A stretch of DNA of 40,770 nt, taken from Desulfovibrionaceae bacterium. Its GTDB lineage: Bacteria; Desulfobacterota; Desulfovibrionia; Desulfovibrionales; Desulfovibrionaceae. A program made the position numbers and the translations under genes. Under the pieces are notes generated by a model. That model was given only the letters and a program-made list of their open reading frames with translations. It searched no databases and was not told where the DNA came from. The stretch covers positions 1-40,770 of the forward strand of contig JADFXV010000021.1 in assembly GCA_015233395.1 (NCBI GenBank). The letters run 5' to 3'. Of this stretch, positions 27,850-38,879 are shown piece after piece (positions within the stretch are counted from its first letter, which is position 1; each line of letters opens with the position of its first letter).

Positions 27850-28767
27850 CTAATTGTCAAGAGGTTTGTCGACACCCTTCAAACAATCGTTTCCCAATTT
27901 TATTTCGTATGAGATATTCCCCACTTGTGGATATTTTTTGTGTAATTCTTCTTCTATTGCTATTTTCTTGTCAGTTTGTTTCTTTAAAAACTGACGTAAA
28001 TTGTCTGATTTCAATTTAAAAAAAGCTGTATCAACAAAACCAATGACTTCCTCTTCTTGAAATTCACCTTTTTTTGCCTCCGTAATTTGCATATAATTCA
28101 TAAATGTAACTTTCACGGTATTTTTATCGTCACTATCCAGAATGTCAACGTTGCTACGTTTTTTTATCCCAATCCCAGCAACTTTATAAACCATTTCACC
28201 GGGACGATACCCATAGAAATAACGCTTGCCATAGAAATAGCGTTCTAAAATCTTTACCCTTGTTCCCTTGAAAATTTTAAACACTCCCTTACTTTTTTCT
28301 TTATCGACCTGGGGAGTAAGTGTTCCATTTATATCATTTTCCAAAACAATAATTTGGCCTGGTTGCCGTCCTTGTTCAGGAGACAACCCCTCTTTTGCCT
28401 CTAAATCCCTGTTTCTAGTCCAGAGTTCCTTAATAAAGGAACAATATAATTCTCGTTCTTCTGCCATGTTATCTTGCACAAACTCTTGGACCGATGTGGA
28501 AGTTGGCTTAGTCGCGGGTCCGCTCGCAACCGGCGCGGGATTGGGCTGAGATGGCGTCGTCACGGACTGTTCAGCCCATTTGTCGTCGACTTCTTTCTTG
28601 ACGAAGATCGCGAAGGCCACAAACGACAGCAGGATTAGCAGGGAGTAGAATTTGAGTACCTTGACGCGAGTGCGTTCCCCCCTGCGCAGAACAATGGTGG
28701 GCTTCATCAGGCCGAGGATCAGGCAGAGCACCGAGAACAGGCATAGCAGAAAGAAAAACATGGCCAT
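27850..28767 (-). CDS. AT-rich moron encoding a two-TM membrane protein
   Basis: 305 residues with GGGAGG before the ATG. Residues 3-22 and 40-57 are hydrophobic; between them lies GLMKPTIVLRRGERTRVKVL, an N-terminal element I have seen in diverse small membrane proteins. A Pro/Thr linker leads to a soluble, lysine-rich domain. The DNA from about 27.85 to 28.55 kb is strikingly AT-rich and uses AT-ending codons, unlike all neighbours, which indicates recent transfer. The soluble part should face the periplasm or cytoplasm depending on hairpin topology. Superinfection exclusion or defence is possible but unproven. Confidence 0.8.
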   Translation of the reverse strand: MAMFFFLLCLFSVLCLILGLMKPTIVLRRGERTRVKVLKFYSLLILLSFVAFAIFVKKEVDDKWAEQSVTTPSQPNPAPVASGPATKPTSTSVQEFVQDNMAEERELYCSFIKELWTRNRDLEAKEGLSPEQGRQPGQIIVLENDINGTLTPQVDKEKSKGVFKIFKGTRVKILERYFYGKRYFYGYRPGEMVYKVAGIGIKKRSNVDILDSDDKNTVKVTFMNYMQITEAKKGEFQEEEVIGFVDTAFFKLKSDNLRQFLKKQTDKKIAIEEELHKKYPQVGNISYEIKLGNDCLKGVDKPLDN

Positions 28768-28835
28768 AAGCCGCCTCCCTTCCGTTTGGATTTACGTTCG
28801 TTACCGCGATCTGCCTATATCGGCAATGGGCTATC

Positions 28836-28910
28836 TCAATCCCGCCACAACACCATGCGCCGAGCATTGGCCACGGCCAGACGTTTCATTGTGTCCGTGA
28901 GTTCTCTCAT
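28836..28910 (-). CDS. Possible 24-residue peptide gene
   Basis: A short frame from the ATG at 28910 encodes MRELTDTMKRLAVANARRMV and four more residues, forming a basic amphipathic helix. AAGGAG lies about 10 bases upstream. It fills the gap between the small membrane protein and the moron. Such a short frame can occur by chance. Confidence 0.35.
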   Translation of the reverse strand: MRELTDTMKRLAVANARRMVLWRD

Positions 28911-28936
28911 AAGCCTTGCGCTCCTTTCTTTCCAAC

Positions 28937-29161
28937 TTACCCCCGCCCCCAAACCAAAATCGCCCGAACGGTCAGCACGCCGAGGACAACGCACTGGATC
29001 GCCAGGGCGCGGTGGCGCCTGGCCAGGGCAAAGACGAGCCACAGGATCTGCGCGGCGAGCATGAGGTACTGCCCCACGATGTGCTTGTCGCCGACAAGCC
29101 AGACCGCGACCATGGTCACGGCCATGGCCAGCCATTCGAGGGCTTCAATCTTGGATATCAT
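28937..29161 (-). CDS. Small three-TM membrane protein
   Basis: 74 residues, hydrophobic over most of the length: WLAMAVTMVAVWLVG, GQYLMLAAQILWLVFALA, and IQCVVLGVLTVRAILVW give three membrane spans. The start lies inside the end of the upstream gene (17-base overlap). No family was recognised. Early operons of transposable phages often hold such genes; function is unknown. Confidence 0.75.
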   Translation of the reverse strand: MISKIEALEWLAMAVTMVAVWLVGDKHIVGQYLMLAAQILWLVFALARRHRALAIQCVVLGVLTVRAILVWGRG

Positions 29162-29333
29162 CGAACCGCTCGCGCTTGATCTCGTCGGCGATGAAAGACA
29201 TGATTTTGCACGTCAATTCCAATGCCGGGGTCTGCTGGCTATCCTTTTGAAGGGTCGGCATGAACTTGAACGAACAAGATATCTTGGCGCGTTCCAAATC
29301 CTTGTCTTCGATCGTGATGATCGCTTTGGCCAT
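29145..29333 (-). CDS. Small conserved-type phage protein
   Basis: 62 residues with GGAGGTG before the ATG (MAKAIITIEDKDLERAKISC, later IMSFIADEIKRERFDDIQD). The composition is that of a small alpha/beta soluble protein; two cysteines are present. It follows the HU gene after a 72-base gap that contains a 7-bp hairpin (29358-29390). No function can be assigned. Confidence 0.75.
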   Translation of the reverse strand: MAKAIITIEDKDLERAKISCSFKFMPTLQKDSQQTPALELTCKIMSFIADEIKRERFDDIQD

Positions 29334-29405
29334 CGTTCACCTCCCCGGCTTATCTCCGCCCCCGACCAGGTCGCATACCGGGCCGGGGGCTGGAGGAAGG
29401 CGAGG

Positions 29406-29678
29406 CTAGAACTTGAGATCCTTGCCGGGCTTGAAGACCACCTTCTTGCCGGCGGGGATCTGGATGGCCTCGCCGGTTTTGGGGTTGCGCCCGGCGCGGG
29501 CCTTGGTTTCCTTGACCGAGAAGGTGCCGAAGCCGCGCACGGTGACTTCGCCACCGGCGGCCATGGCCTTCTTGATGCGATCCAGGACTTCCTCCACGGC
29601 GGCCTTGGCCTGGGTGAAGGGCATTCCCGTCTTGTCCTTGATTCCTTCCGCCAAATCGTCTTTGCCGATCGTTCTCAT
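29406..29678 (-). CDS. HU/IHF-family DNA-bending protein
   Basis: 90 residues, the standard HU length, with AGGAG 6 bases upstream. The HU signature is clear: IGKDDLAEGIKDKTGMPFTQ, VTVRGFGTFSVKETKARAGR, NPKTGEAIQIPAGKKVVFKP. HU bends DNA as a dimer. Mu transposition depends on host HU for the transpososome and IHF at the early enhancer, so a phage copy could make transposition less dependent on the host. It may also compact or repress DNA. Confidence 0.95.
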   Translation of the reverse strand: MRTIGKDDLAEGIKDKTGMPFTQAKAAVEEVLDRIKKAMAAGGEVTVRGFGTFSVKETKARAGRNPKTGEAIQIPAGKKVVFKPGKDLKF

Positions 29679-29687
29679 GTCTCGCTC

Positions 29688-30179
29688 CTATTGGGGTTTA
29701 CGGCCGCGCGGGGCGCGGCCGGGGTTGACGTCGTCTCCGAAAAATCGCTTGTAGGCCTCGATCCAGTTCCCGAGAAAGATTTTTTGTCCGTCCTCCAGGC
29801 TCAGCGTGCGATCTTTGCACACGAGCTTGAGGACGTAGACCTCAAGCCGGTCCTTTTTGTGGGCGTTCCAGGGCTCGGTCCAATAGCTCTGCGGCCAGAG
29901 GTTCTCGAACTCGTCCGCGCCGCCCAGGCAAAGCGGCACGTCGTGGTCCACCTCATATTCCCCGGGCTCATGCCGGGTGATGCCGTAGGCGGCATAGACC
30001 CGCTCCTTGAGGGCGGCGGGCGTATGCCGGTGCGCCTTGGCATAGCCCGGCCGGCAAACTTCCGAGATGTCCGTGCTGGCGATCGCGCCCGGGGTCAAGC
30101 TCCGGTCCGGCAGATCTCCGGCCAGGGCCACGCTCGCGGCCAGCATGAGCGCGAGGATCGACAGGATGGTCTTTTTCAT
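29688..30179 (-). CDS. Secreted HNH-type nuclease
   Basis: 163 residues from the ATG at 30179, with GGAGAAGG upstream. Residues 1-20 form a signal peptide (KKTILSILALMLAASVALA, cleavage after ALA). The HNH core reads EYEVDHDVPLCLGGADEFEN with His79, then NLWPQ and NAHKKDRLE with His107 as the likely metal ligand. Cysteines 42, 84 and 121 may form a disulfide. The mature enzyme should act in the periplasm, where it could cut incoming DNA. Its start overlaps the stop of an upstream small gene that has been broken by duplication. Confidence 0.82.
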   Translation of the reverse strand: MKKTILSILALMLAASVALAGDLPDRSLTPGAIASTDISEVCRPGYAKAHRHTPAALKERVYAAYGITRHEPGEYEVDHDVPLCLGGADEFENLWPQSYWTEPWNAHKKDRLEVYVLKLVCKDRTLSLEDGQKIFLGNWIEAYKRFFGDDVNPGRAPRGRKPQ

Positions 30180-30456
30180 TGCACCTTCTCCGTTGGGACG
30201 TTCAGAAACAGAAACACCACGGTTTTTTCTCCAATCCGCGCGGGCGTCGGAACTGCTTGCTTGGCAGGTTGCGCTGCCCAGGCTTGAAGCCATTTCGTGA
30301 AACGCCCTAAGGCGACGGCAACCCCGTAAAGCAAATCGGAACTGCTTGCTTGGCAGGTTGCGCTGCCCAGGCTTGAAGCCATTTCGTGAAACGCCCTAAG
30401 GCGACGGCAACCCCGTAAAGCAAACGCGACATTACGGCCACAAGAACCCGTTTCAT
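30176..30456 (-). pseudogene. Small gene broken by an 89-bp tandem duplication
   Basis: The start at 30456 overlaps the upstream stop as ATGA. As sequenced, the frame (MKRVLVAVMSRLLYGVAVAL and on) ends at a TAG at 30307 after 49 residues. Removing one copy of the 89-bp repeat (89 is not a multiple of 3) restores 63 residues ending VVFLFLNVPTEKVQ, whose stop overlaps the nuclease start as ATGA. Both ends thus fit the operon only when a single copy is present. The intact product would be a small basic protein with a hydrophobic stretch; its function is unknown. Confidence 0.8.
30247..30424. repeat. Perfect 89-bp tandem direct duplication
   Basis: Bases 30247-30335 and 30336-30424 are identical by direct reading. 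Each copy starts TCGGAACTGC and ends TAAAGCAAA. The duplication lies inside a small coding gene and shifts its frame. Collapse to one copy by homologous recombination or slippage would restore the gene. Confidence 0.95.
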
Positions 30457-30884
30457 TTCGCCTCGCAATCGTCGACGGCGACCGGCTCTTCGCGGCCGAC
30501 GACGAATACCTTCCAGCGGCCGTCGTGCGCCAGGAAGGGCCGCGAGCTCGTGAAGGTCACGTCGCGCATGCGGCCCAAGCCGAGATCGGTATAGTCATTG
30601 CCGTTGAGCACGGCCACGCGCGTGCTCTTGGGCCAGTCCGGGGGAGGAGGAGGCTCTCCGGCCCCAAACCAGAGCCTGGCCAGAGCGGTGAACGCCCCGG
30701 CGGCATCGAAAAATTCATATCTTGCACCGACCTGCGAGAACCATTTGCCGCAGACCCGAATGCGGTAGAGACCGGCGTCGTCGGGGTCTTCCGAGAACGC
30801 CTCGGCGTTGAAAAAGAATGCTTTCAGCGTCTTGCCGCCAAATTTGAGCAAAACGGCGAATGATTTTTTGCGTTTTTCGGCCAT
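30453..30884 (-). CDS. Hypothetical protein downstream of the Mor gene
   Basis: 143 residues. A basic N-terminus (MAEKRKKSFAVLLKFGGKTL) leads to a beta-rich, aromatic body (RIRVCGKWFSQVGARYEFFD), a proline run, and a final WKVFVVGREEPVAVDD. I recognise no family. It follows the Mor gene in the same direction, so it is a middle gene, and its stop overlaps the start of the broken gene. Confidence 0.75.
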   Translation of the reverse strand: MAEKRKKSFAVLLKFGGKTLKAFFFNAEAFSEDPDDAGLYRIRVCGKWFSQVGARYEFFDAAGAFTALARLWFGAGEPPPPPDWPKSTRVAVLNGNDYTDLGLGRMRDVTFTSSRPFLAHDGRWKVFVVGREEPVAVDDCEAK

Positions 30885-30909
30885 GTTTTTGAAGCAATCC
30901 TGGTTTGGA

Positions 30910-31206
30910 TCAGATAAACGTGTGCTGGTCGCCCTTGACCGCGCCGCCCTCGACGATGTGGTAGACGTGTCGCTCGGTAATCCCGCATTTCAGGGCCAGC
31001 GTCTTGGCGTTGGTGCCGTTGTACTGCGCTCTGACGTAGCGCTCGACGGTCGCCTTGAGCCCGGAGCGCGGAATATTCAGTTGGGTGCCCCCGAGCTTGT
31101 CCACGAGCTTCACGGCCACCTCCAGCCCGCATTCCTGGACGATCAAGCCGAGATCGCCGGTGAAATCCTCGGGCCGGGCCAATTCAAGCAGGTCTTTATG
31201 GAGCAT
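30910..31206 (-). CDS. mor: Mor-type transcription activator (Mor/C family)
   Basis: 98 residues. The Mor/C pattern is visible: an N-terminal dimerisation part (LGLIVQECGLEVAVKLVDKL, GGTQLNIPRSGLKATVERYV) and a C-terminal HTH (YNGTNAKTLALKCGITERHV followed by YHIVEGG). In Mu, Mor activates the middle promoter and C the late promoters. Only one Mor/C family gene is visible here, so it may drive both middle and late transcription. Confidence 0.88.
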   Translation of the reverse strand: MLHKDLLELARPEDFTGDLGLIVQECGLEVAVKLVDKLGGTQLNIPRSGLKATVERYVRAQYNGTNAKTLALKCGITERHVYHIVEGGAVKGDQHTFI

Positions 31207-31208
31207 GA

Positions 31209-31655
31209 CTAGGCCACCTTTTCCGCGCCCATGGCTTCGAGCGTTTTGACCAGGCGCGGCACGTCCTCGTCGGTCAAAAACTCGATTTTGTCCTTCTTGA
31301 CGATGCGCCGGATCAATTTGTTAAGCGCCGCCGCCCGGGCGTCGCCCTTTTCGGCGCGTGCGACCTGGTCAAAGAGCGCCTCTACCAGCCGGAGCTGCGC
31401 CGCCGAGGCCCGGCCGAGCGTAGGCTTGCGGTTGTCGTACTTTTTGCGCCCGCGCGGCTGCTTGAGCTGCTTCCAGACGCCGATGTCGAGGGCCTGGCGC
31501 TCCAGGCCCTCGATAAACCGGGAGGTCTGGGCGTCGGTCAGCTCCTTGCAGCTTTCCGCGCCGTAGCTCTCCAGGCGCAGGCGGTAGGTTGCGTCGTCGA
31601 GCCCAAGCGCCCGCTTGAGGGCGTGGATCTTCTTGATCTGCTCAAGAGTCGGCAT
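31209..31655 (-). CDS. gemA: GemA / gp16-like protein (DUF1018)
   Basis: 148 residues with AAGGAGGGAGG before the ATG. DUF1018 features are LEQIKKIHALKRALGLDDAT, YRLRLESYGAESCKELTDA, and a C-terminal helical LVEALFDQVARAEKGDARA. Mu GemA (gp16) belongs to this family and modulates host gene expression and DNA topology. Its place just before Mor is the same as in Mu. Confidence 0.88.
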   Translation of the reverse strand: MPTLEQIKKIHALKRALGLDDATYRLRLESYGAESCKELTDAQTSRFIEGLERQALDIGVWKQLKQPRGRKKYDNRKPTLGRASAAQLRLVEALFDQVARAEKGDARAAALNKLIRRIVKKDKIEFLTDEDVPRLVKTLEAMGAEKVA

Positions 31656-31854
31656 GGATTCCTCCCTCCTTATCCAACTTGCGCCTCCAGGCGGCGTTGA
31701 GCGCCTCGGCGCTGATCGTGGCCATGGCCACGGCCGCGTCCGGATTGCCGGGGTCTTTGAAGTACAAGGCCACGATCCGGTTGAACTTGCCTTCCAGCCT
31801 ATCCCGGATGGCCGGGCGAAAATGGGCGTTCTCGACGGTGAAGCGGTCAGGCAT
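31642..31854 (-). CDS. Small hypothetical early protein
   Basis: 70 residues from the ATG at 31854, which overlaps the upstream stop by 8 bases. The sequence (VENAHFRPAIRDRLEGKFNR, ATISAEALNAAWRRKL) looks helical and soluble. No family was recognised. It overlaps the GemA start by 14 bases. Confidence 0.7.
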   Translation of the reverse strand: MPDRFTVENAHFRPAIRDRLEGKFNRIVALYFKDPGNPDAAVAMATISAEALNAAWRRKLDKEGGIHADS

Positions 31855-32122
31855 GTGCGATCCTCCGCGCCTTGTCATCCAAGACAAGGCAATCGAAGCC
31901 ATGTTCCTTGGCGCTGCCAAGCTTCAGGCCGCGCCGCTCAAGGTATTTGCTTATGGCGTCCTTGGTTTGATGCAGCCCGGTCAAGCGCGAGAGCTCACCG
32001 GCCACGAAGCTGACCCCCTGGACGCGGCAGCTGTTCTCGAAGCCGCAACGGAGCACCAGCCCAAGGGCCTCGGCCAGACCCAAGGGGGTCTTGGAAGGTT
32101 TGGCCAGCCTGGAGGCGGTCAC
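31847..32122 (-). CDS. Hypothetical early protein, possible helical DNA-associated domain
   Basis: 91 residues from a GTG at 32122 (TASRLAKPSKTPLGLAEALG), chosen because GGAGAGGG lies 7 bases upstream and the start is 4 bases beyond the preceding stop. The frame is open up to a TTG at 32239, but that would overlap the upstream gene by 113 bases. The middle holds a region like a small HTH (AGELSRLTGLHQTKDAISKY) and two cysteines. Function is unknown. A change in the upstream G-tract would fuse it to the preceding gene. Confidence 0.68.
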   Translation of the reverse strand: MTASRLAKPSKTPLGLAEALGLVLRCGFENSCRVQGVSFVAGELSRLTGLHQTKDAISKYLERRGLKLGSAKEHGFDCLVLDDKARRIAHA

Positions 32123-33798: not shown

Positions 33799-33845
33799 AG
33801 TAACCTCCAGGCTGCTCATCAGGCCCGGGCCGCCACGCCCGGACG

Positions 33846-33865
33846 ACCGCCCCGGGTGGGGCGGT
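33846..33865. other. GC hairpin in a gap of the early operon
   Basis: ACCGCCCC and GGGGCGGT form an 8-bp stem around GGGT in the 77-base gap 33799-33875. On the - strand, the direction of transcription here, no U-run follows, so this may be an RNA-processing or attenuation element rather than a full terminator. Confidence 0.45.
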
Positions 33866-33875
33866 TTCGCTGCGG

Positions 33876-36123: not shown

Positions 36124-36810
36124 CTACGCGGCCAGATCCGCGCCGGTGACGATTTCCAGCTTGCGGGTACGGGCAATGCGCTCGGCCATGGCCGCCCAGC
36201 GGTAGAGCTGGGCCACGGTCGTGATTTTGTTGGCCGCCACGATCGCCTCGACCGCCGAGTCGTCCAGAGCCACCTCGCAGATCTGCGCCAGCACGGCGGC
36301 CACGTCCTTGCGGGTCAGTCCCTCGAAACGCGCCAGCTGGCTGATGCGGCGCTTGAGCGCCGTGTACTTCTTGAGCTTCTCCTCGGCCCAGGGCATGCCG
36401 AGCAGCACGATCGGGCTGCCGGTCATGTCGCCCAGGTCTCGCAGGGTTTCTATCAGCGTGGTCTTGTCGGCAACGTAATCCACCTCATCCAGAATCAGGG
36501 CGCGGTCCGTGCCCACGAGCGCCTCAACGGCCTGGTGGAAGAGGTCGCTAGTGCGACGGAGGGGGATCTCGCCGAGCTCGGCAACGATCTCCTCCAGGAG
36601 CCAGCGGACGCTCATGGCCTTTTTGATGCGCACGAAGGCGCTCTGCGGACTCTGGGTGTTCTTCCACCAGAGCGCGGTTTCGGTCTTGCCCAGCCCGACC
36701 GGGCCGTAGACCAACACGAAACGGTCGATGCCCGGTTGGGCGTCCACGACGGCATTGACGGCCGCCACAAAACGCTTTACGTTATCGGTGATCGCAAACT
36801 GTTTTCGCAA
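36124..36810 (-). CDS. MuB-like AAA+ ATPase, target-DNA activator
   Basis: 228 residues from a TTG at 36810 (RKQFAITDNVKRFVAAVNA), because AGGAGG lies 6 bases upstream; an ATG at 36849 would overlap the transposase by 73 bases. Walker A is GPVGLGKT (36-43) and Walker B ALILDEVDY (104-112). It also has VLLGMPWAEEKLKK and a C-terminal helical domain. MuB forms ATP-dependent filaments on target DNA and stimulates MuA. It follows the transposase as in Mu, with an overlap of 34 bases. Confidence 0.92.
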   Translation of the reverse strand: MRKQFAITDNVKRFVAAVNAVVDAQPGIDRFVLVYGPVGLGKTETALWWKNTQSPQSAFVRIKKAMSVRWLLEEIVAELGEIPLRRTSDLFHQAVEALVGTDRALILDEVDYVADKTTLIETLRDLGDMTGSPIVLLGMPWAEEKLKKYTALKRRISQLARFEGLTRKDVAAVLAQICEVALDDSAVEAIVAANKITTVAQLYRWAAMAERIARTRKLEIVTGADLAA

Positions 36811-38879
36811 ATCTCGCCTCCTTTGTGCTTGGCCTGGATACGATTCCACTCGGCGTCCAGGTCGGCCTCGGACATCCAGCTCAGGTCGGTCGGGTCCACC
36901 ACCCGTCCGGCCTGAGTTGGTTTGAAACCCTCGTCAATTTGCGCCGCCGGCGCGGGCGGCAGATTCACGGCCGGTTCGTTCGCGGCCGCGACCTCCTCCA
37001 GTTTTCCCGGCAGCTTCGGCGCGCCCATGAGCGCGGCCCAGGGGATGGAATCCGCGGCCTCGTCGAGCTTGCCCATTCTGGCCGCCTGAGCCACCAGCTT
37101 TTGCGTCCCGCGCACCAGGGACTTGTGCTCGCGGAGCTGCTCCCGGTATGCGCCGTAGCCGTCCGCGTCCTTGCCTCCGGCCAGCGCGAAAAGCGGGTGG
37201 ACCAATTCGCGCCGGTCCGCCCGGCACATGAACTCGCCGCTCATGGCGTAGATCCACACCTGGCGCAGATCGTGCCAATCGAAGCGCACGCACACCCGCT
37301 CGCGCAGGCCGTAGAGCGCCTCGTGCCAATACTCGCGCCCGAACATGGTGATGCCGTTGTTGCGCGGGGTTTTGACTTCTTCGTGCATCATCAAAAAACG
37401 CAGGCTGCGGTGGTCGAGGCCTGAGCCCTGGCCTGCGCCGAAGACCTCGCCGGGCGTGCGGCCGCGCAGACCGGAATGCACCCGCTGGCGGTAAAAGTTG
37501 TCCAGCCAGGCCTCGAACAGGCCGCAGGCGTCCTCGAGCGCGAACACCCGGTCCGGGGCCAGCTTCTGCATGAACTTTTCGTTGCGCTTCATGCGCGCGG
37601 GCTTGGCTTCGATCGAGCCGCCGACGTAGGAGCCGACCATTTTCTCGAAAGACAGGCCCATGGTCTTGAAAAAGGATTCGATGGGCTTGACCCGGGCCAG
37701 GTACGGCGTGGCGAAGGCGGTCAGAATGTTCAGGCGGCCGTAAAGTCCGGCGCAGCCCGAGGACTCCAGGTCGATGTTCTGGGTGAATACCTTGGCCTTG
37801 AAGGCGCGCCCGTTGTCGAGAAGCACCGCCTTGGGAATTTTGCCCAAGCGCAGAATCGAGCGGTACAGGGCGAGGTGGATGGCGCTGACGTCTTCCGTGA
37901 GCATGTAGGTATAGCCGGCGATGTCGCGGCTGGCCCAGTCCTGGTAAGCGATGAGCACCGGCCGCACCGGCTTTCCGGTCATGGGGTGGATCACGCGGAA
38001 GTTGCAGGGGTGGCCGTCTGCGATCAGCACGTCTCCGACCGAGAGCAGCGAGTCGTCGCGCCGGAAAAAGGGCGCGATCTTGTCGACAAGCGCCTTCTGG
38101 CCGTCGCGAGACAAGGTCCAAACGTCGGCGTGCTGGCGTTTGAAGGATTCGACGTAGTTGCGCAGCGTCGAGACCGAGCTCGGCGAGGCAATGCCCTTCT
38201 GCGCGAGCAACATCTTGGTCATTTCGATGGCCGTGGCTGTCTTGAATTTATGCTGGTGCAGCAGAAGCTTCATGAGGGTCTCGGCCTCGGCCTCGGTGAC
38301 TTTGCTGACGCCCTGGCGGTGGCGGCCGTGGCGCGGGGCCAGGGCGGCGCAATCGTGATCCGCGCGCCGCAGCTCCACGGCCCAGCGCTCCAGGGTCTGC
38401 CAGGAGGTGGGTCCGAGCTCGGCCAGGATGGCGGGATACAGCGCCCCGGAGTTGTGGCCTACGACAAAGGCTTCGCGGGCCTTGGCCACGGTCTTGCCGT
38501 GCTTGCGGGCCCAGTCCTTGGCCTGGAGATAGTTTCGCACCAGATCCGCCTTCAGGGCCGCCCGCGCCAACGCCGCCGGCTTGAGTCCCGGGTCCGGCGG
38601 CGCAGGGGCAACGGGGATGCTGGCGGGGGAGACCGAGGGAACCGGGGCCTGGCTTTGGCCGCCCGGGAGCAGCGTCAGCCCGGAGCGGGCGCGCTTGACG
38701 GCAATGCGGATTGGTTCGGGGAGGGAGGTTAGAGGAAATATTTTGCCGCCGCCCTTGCCGTGGCGCTTTTCGGATGGCCAGGATTCGGACGCTGCGCGCT
38801 TCGATACCGCCTGGACGGAGACGCCCAGAATTTTGGCCAGGTTTTTGGCGGTCAGACGGTCGGTGGGCGCGGTCTGCAT
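36777..38879 (-). CDS. MuA-like DDE transposase
   Basis: 700 residues, near the length of MuA (663). Residues 8-60 form a MerR/Mu-type winged DNA-binding domain (LTAKNLAKILGVSVQAVSKR). After a Pro/Ala linker comes the end-binding region. The catalytic core has Asp288 (DVLIADGHPCNF), Asp355 (AVLLDNGRAF) and Glu401 (RVKPIESFF), spaced as in MuA. The C-terminal region (VCVRFDWHDLRQVWIYAMSG) fits the Mu transposase beta-barrel, followed by an Ala/Pro-rich tail that may contact MuB. It integrates and replicates the phage by transposition. Confidence 0.95.
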   Translation of the reverse strand: MQTAPTDRLTAKNLAKILGVSVQAVSKRAASESWPSEKRHGKGGGKIFPLTSLPEPIRIAVKRARSGLTLLPGGQSQAPVPSVSPASIPVAPAPPDPGLKPAALARAALKADLVRNYLQAKDWARKHGKTVAKAREAFVVGHNSGALYPAILAELGPTSWQTLERWAVELRRADHDCAALAPRHGRHRQGVSKVTEAEAETLMKLLLHQHKFKTATAIEMTKMLLAQKGIASPSSVSTLRNYVESFKRQHADVWTLSRDGQKALVDKIAPFFRRDDSLLSVGDVLIADGHPCNFRVIHPMTGKPVRPVLIAYQDWASRDIAGYTYMLTEDVSAIHLALYRSILRLGKIPKAVLLDNGRAFKAKVFTQNIDLESSGCAGLYGRLNILTAFATPYLARVKPIESFFKTMGLSFEKMVGSYVGGSIEAKPARMKRNEKFMQKLAPDRVFALEDACGLFEAWLDNFYRQRVHSGLRGRTPGEVFGAGQGSGLDHRSLRFLMMHEEVKTPRNNGITMFGREYWHEALYGLRERVCVRFDWHDLRQVWIYAMSGEFMCRADRRELVHPLFALAGGKDADGYGAYREQLREHKSLVRGTQKLVAQAARMGKLDEAADSIPWAALMGAPKLPGKLEEVAAANEPAVNLPPAPAAQIDEGFKPTQAGRVVDPTDLSWMSEADLDAEWNRIQAKHKGGEICENSLRSPIT

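Follow-up and report, generated by a model that had tools for sequence, protein, structure and literature searches.

An exact 89-bp tandem duplication shifts the frame of a small ORF beside an HNH-type nuclease gene in a Mu-like prophage

Among the genetic systems in which the number of copies of a repeat decides the reading of a gene are the phase-variable loci that change their repeat number by slipped-strand mispairing, which usually contain many short units and for which both states have been seen. Spontaneous short tandem duplications with precise reversion are, in turn, a known class of mutation. The four-base overlap of a stop codon with the following start codon, which is central to the locus described here, is a common arrangement in phage operons. 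A review consulted on this subject mentions, in its available part, a 209-kb element whose copy number changes reversibly, and no word starting with “tandem” or “duplication” occurs in that part of its main text (PMC11868660). Likewise, the publications listed on tandem duplications and their reversal offered no close parallel to the case reported below, where two identical copies of 89 bp lie inside a small ORF that precedes a nuclease gene.

A Mu-like prophage in a draft genome

The window, which is the whole stretch of DNA analysed (40,770 b), corresponds to one entire contig of a draft genome of 158 contigs and 3,372,092 b. Judging from its gene content, the window holds a Mu-like prophage: genes for a Mor-type transcription activator and for GemA occur in one cluster, both with Pfam scores above cutoff (Table 1), the ORFs 36777-38879(-) and 36124-36849(-) resemble by eye a DDE transposase A and an ATPase B, and transposase-, portal-, sheath- and tail-like ORFs were recognised in the window, also by eye. 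Searching with GemA yielded a single viral relative, a weak one. The phage itself had no close relative among the sequences compared. Read along the minus strand, the genes of interest follow the order GemA, Mor, a phrog_18900 gene (hereafter, the upstream gene), the small ORF, the HNH gene and a gene for an HU-like protein.

Other features of the prophage deserve a mention. An ORF of 305 aa (27850-28767, minus strand) shows a low GC of 0.42, a GC3 of 0.44 and only weak PHROG matches, and may be an accessory gene that came from elsewhere. A Type II hammerhead ribozyme (RF02276) maps to positions 33806-33872 of the minus strand, in the prophage early region, with 73.1 bits vs a gathering score of 37. 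According to the part of the source available, bacterial hammerheads frequently adjoin prophage genes and possibly cut long phage transcripts (PMC3088659).

Table 1. Coordinates in the window of the genes, frames and repeat copies discussed in the text
Feature	Position	Strand	Remarks
GemA gene	31209..31655	-	PF06252, E 1.4e-17, above cutoff
Mor-type transcription activator gene	30910..31206	-	PF08765, E 1.8e-9, above cutoff
Upstream gene, phrog_18900 (unknown function)	30453..30884	-	E 8.4e-25
Small ORF, present form	30307..30456	-	49 codons, TAG stop; ATGA overlap with upstream stop
Copy B of the 89-bp repeat	30336..30424	-	5' copy in the small ORF; same sequence as copy A
Second open frame, 68 codons	30176..30382	-	created by the duplication; rest of the one-copy frame
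Copy A of the 89-bp repeat	30247..30335	-	3' copy in the small ORF
HNH-type nuclease gene, open	29688..30179	-	163 aa; N-terminal stretch resembling a signal peptide (by eye)
HU-like DNA-binding protein gene, following the HNH gene	29406..29678	-	PF00216, E 5.4e-30

The 89-bp repeat and its reading frames

An earlier note on this DNA had described two identical 89-bp copies back to back in a small gene, which is what we find: the direct copies adjoin head-to-tail, Tandem Repeats Finder gives an array at 30247-30424 (period 89, 2.0 copies, 100% match), and an independent script finds 89 consecutive exact matches at an offset of 89. Such a perfect repeat is far above chance expectation. In a survey of 1,211,416 bases of the genome (36% of the total, with the window and some N counted in), which considered units of 20-1500 bp and required exact identity over half a unit or more and over no fewer than 18 bases, it was the sole exact tandem with a unit longer than 45 bp, and the weaker matches corresponded to units of 23, 24 and 45 bp, together with a six-base simple repeat adjoining an N run. 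The DNA of the array is found at a single place in its own genome assembly, and an exact match to a 29-base core of the unit is absent from the viral_contigs collection. The two copies are exact, without a single substitution, which fits a recent event. At the boundaries, the comparison of the flank ...GGGCG with the unit end ...GCAAA, and of the flank CGCG... with the unit start TCGG..., gave not one base in common, so that there is no flanking repeat to mark a dedicated site.

We also considered the 89-nt unit as a structured RNA or a mobile unit, a candidate that was rejected after finding that it folds no better than its shuffled versions (z -0.24); a scan of the whole window at the Rfam gathering thresholds places no family over it. 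As a separate observation, a weak terminator-like stem of 6 pairs, 3 of them G-C, occurs directly before copy B (30425-30442, minus strand), with its T-rich tail falling within the repeat. The scan of the region 28500-32000 gave 10 terminator-like sites vs 4.6 expected, and no promoter-like site on the minus strand.

The ATG of the small ORF (30456-30454) overlaps the TGA of the upstream gene (30455-30453), as the earlier note had stated, and a GAGG motif is found 4 nt before it. From this start, the frame crosses copy B, enters copy A out of frame and stops at 30307, so the stop after 49 residues in the presence of two copies is also borne out. The resulting product retains the first 40 of the 63 residues of the one-copy reading, followed by 9 frame-shifted codons. 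The second open frame runs from 30382 to 30176, reads copy A in its proper register and then the unique 3' part, and its terminal TGA overlaps the HNH ATG at 30179 in another ATGA. The peptide of the unit is identical in both frames, and a single unit would therefore give 63 codons in one uninterrupted frame (32 + 89 + 68 = 189 nt), a length that we derived from the two existing frames rather than from spliced DNA and that agrees with the 63 residues, ending in an ATGA on the HNH gene, previously proposed for one copy. A single-sequence model of the 68-aa frame, of low overall confidence (mean pLDDT 64.5), shows one helix at residues 14-36, and this predicted segment would lie mostly within the part common to both products.

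Relatives of the small ORF and of the nuclease

At a limit of E 0.1, neither PHROGs nor NCBIfam contains a match to the frames of 49 and 68 aa, and Pfam gave one match that was far under its cutoff (E 0.034). Across 284 other genomes of the family (whole-genome comparisons used one genome per species), nothing above noise was obtained with the 68-aa frame (best E 0.0024). Weak matches with E up to 1 appear in 160 of 285 genomes (a count that includes its own) and were taken as noise. Several of them have internal stops; among the five such places inspected (L100-L104), L101 and L103 lie, by eye, opposite a long nitroreductase-like frame. Neither in the 80 viral loci with a relative of the HNH protein (best E 0.47, at one locus) nor in a further 31 loci that were fetched (best E 0.14) did the small frames have a relative, and in none of these loci were the small gene or the repeat found to be kept at this place. 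Relatives of the upstream gene are present in 61 of 288 genomes (own included) and in one viral contig, and were not found in phage records. In 30 of the corresponding loci (29 from the genome set, with about 1.5 kb at each side, and the viral one), neither the small frames nor the HNH protein were significantly matched, and the next ORFs, where listed, were other genes.

With respect to the nuclease, a search with the single protein found no match in 38 other relatives, 394 other genomes of the phylum, viral_contigs or phages, and the DNA of the region 29600-31000 had no match in phages either. The same protein search gave one distant relative (L003:5644-6447, a Terriglobia MAG), in which the HNH-like domain forms the C-terminal end of a longer ORF, whose N-terminus looks anti-sigma-like by eye, and has a Y at the position of H79 of the window protein. 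With a two-row alignment as query, 211 relatives were recovered from viral contigs. The 80 best of them were fetched and aligned with the window protein, leaving the Terriglobia sequence outside the resulting 81 rows. All 81 keep E76, D78, H79, N93, L94, W95, P96, K109, D110 and E113, which gives the D-H, N and downstream charged motif of HNH nucleases (DH...N...KDxxE); many rows are near-identical, and the search patterns already contained E76, D78 and N93-Q97, which leaves H79, K109, D110 and E113 as the only residues not fixed by the search. Matches also occur in 34 plasmid records.

The window protein has no match among Pfam or NCBIfam families, its best PHROG match is endonuclease VII (E 0.013), and six of the seven relatives scanned match PF01844 and PF13930, in all cases under cutoff. 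Its structure model has a mean pLDDT of 49.3, too low to be used for the fold, and the comparison with solved structures gave no convincing HNH relative, the best match, at E 0.0013, being a designed helical repeat protein. Given these sub-cutoff Pfam and weak PHROG matches, this secreted HNH-like family may merit a profile of its own. In 27 of the 80 viral loci, an upstream ORF of at least 30 codons has a 4-base overlap with the chosen start of the HNH relative.

Origin and consequences of the duplication

Before any meaning is given to the repeat, the possibility of a single genomic copy doubled by the assembler has to be weighed. The draft state of the genome, in 158 contigs, and 98 consecutive N, either a gap or a mask, in one sampled stretch would be compatible with such an error. 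However, exact matches between contig ends and other sampled contigs (58 ends compared with sampled stretches of other contigs, 3 skipped for N) reach a maximum of 127 bases, whereas the unit has only 89; the remaining match lengths are of 121, 124 and 126 bases at small offsets, or short (19-49). The stop at 127 bases points to an assembler k of 127. Between 30100 and 30560 there are 35 recurring 55-mers and 13 recurring 77-mers, and no 99- or 127-mer recurs, so the array would be unambiguous at that k and not invented through an uncollapsed overlap. Moreover, there is no other 89-bp exact tandem in the 1,211,416 bases sampled. The comparison of the two window ends with other contigs of the genome gave nothing beyond one 33-base match of 91%. 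On these grounds, an assembly artefact behind the duplication is unlikely. A different objection is that the one-copy ORF may never have been a protein gene, but an untranslated spacer in which the duplication broke nothing. Its two halves score -0.14 (40 codons) and 0.05 (52 codons) bits per codon, both below the 5th percentile (0.12) of the 50-codon windows from 29 phage ORFs (mean 0.47), which were chosen by eye and are the very ORFs used to train the codon model. Its GC3 is 0.57-0.59 vs 0.76-0.86 in the phrog_18900, HNH, Mor and HU genes, and no homologue was found, all of which speaks for a spacer. Nevertheless, the small frame is the top of the six frames in each half, and the 305-aa ORF of the same cluster scores equally low (0.00), so that low codon scores occur in this phage outside the small ORF as well. 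The one-copy frame also carries an ATGA overlap at either end and the GAGG motif before its start, which suggest instead a real gene in a translated operon, whose loss might matter. Altogether, we regard the spacer explanation as quite improbable, and the small ORF, as far as its sequence can tell, as probably a real gene and a private accessory ORF of the prophage.

The arrangement of the locus also invites another interpretation, put forward in the earlier note, where the number of 89-bp copies would toggle the small gene in a reversible on/off manner and, by translational coupling, the nuclease as well. Perfect direct copies within an ORF, of a length that is not a multiple of three, and a one-copy reading with ATGA overlaps at both ends are what such a switch could look like, and repeats of this kind can be gained and lost. 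For a switch one would look for both states, for recurrence or for a conserved partner, and not one of the three was found: a single state is seen, that of its own assembly, and the small gene is without a relative in the 80 viral HNH loci or the 30 loci around relatives of the upstream gene. The GGAG motif of the HNH gene, moreover, sits outside the repeat. For these reasons, we rate the switch as very unlikely. Reversibility by recombination does hold in principle for a perfect tandem repeat, this one like any other, although there is no sign of its use; and with no microhomology at the boundaries the duplication should rarely be made again, which would make the loss of a copy far easier than its regain. 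A working on/off configuration is, in contrast, not supported, since neither a second state, nor boundary microhomology, nor a homologue of the small product were found. The idea of a slow heritable switch of a Mu-like phage, in which the amount of a periplasmic nuclease would follow from coupling or uncoupling its translation and a lysogen population would hold both forms, seems to us highly improbable.

The suggestion that a loss of coupling may lower the translation of the nuclease fares differently in its two parts. Read from 30456, the frame now falls short of the ATGA of the HNH gene, but this overlap persists through the 68-codon frame, and an ATG at 30293, 13 nt past the new stop, starts an open stretch that continues into the HNH frame. 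The GGAG motif, 8 nt before the HNH ATG, lies in unique sequence and is present at either copy number. With these three elements, a loss of coupling is possible but not required, and an effect on the nuclease is not supported, with its gene open and its own GGAG motif untouched by the duplication. As read from the sequence, translation of the HNH gene probably continues.

The explanation that we favour, and hold as probable, is that a recent tandem duplication put an accessory ORF, private to this Mu-like prophage, out of frame, and that its loss was probably neutral or nearly so. A single event would have added 89 bp, not a multiple of three, to the small ORF, shifting its frame after codon 40 and ending the product at residue 49 instead of reading through. 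The near-neutrality of this loss is suggested by an ORF that is private as far as searched and atypical in its codon use, while the neighbouring HNH gene, open and with an RBS-like motif downstream of the repeat, would probably still be translated. The extra copy could be lost again by slippage or recombination, a capacity whose regulatory use is without support. The locus may thus serve as a calibration case, where a tidy repeat and its ATGA overlaps can pass for a switch without the comparative support that a switch needs. If both copy numbers were present, it would offer a small natural readout of how unstable a tandem repeat is in a phage, and would allow a test of whether the start-stop overlap sets the nuclease dosage.

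Among the secreted HNH-like proteins of phages and plasmids, the window copy is an ordinary member, and only the small ORF before it is broken. With phase variation by slipped-strand mispairing, the locus has in common a frame-shifting direct repeat within an ORF, whose copy number could change, but it consists of two long copies in one state. Nothing was found that sets the 89-bp array, with its boundaries free of microhomology, apart from the spontaneous short tandem duplications with precise reversion, with which it shares an exact head-to-tail copy, a frame shift and a reversibility in principle.
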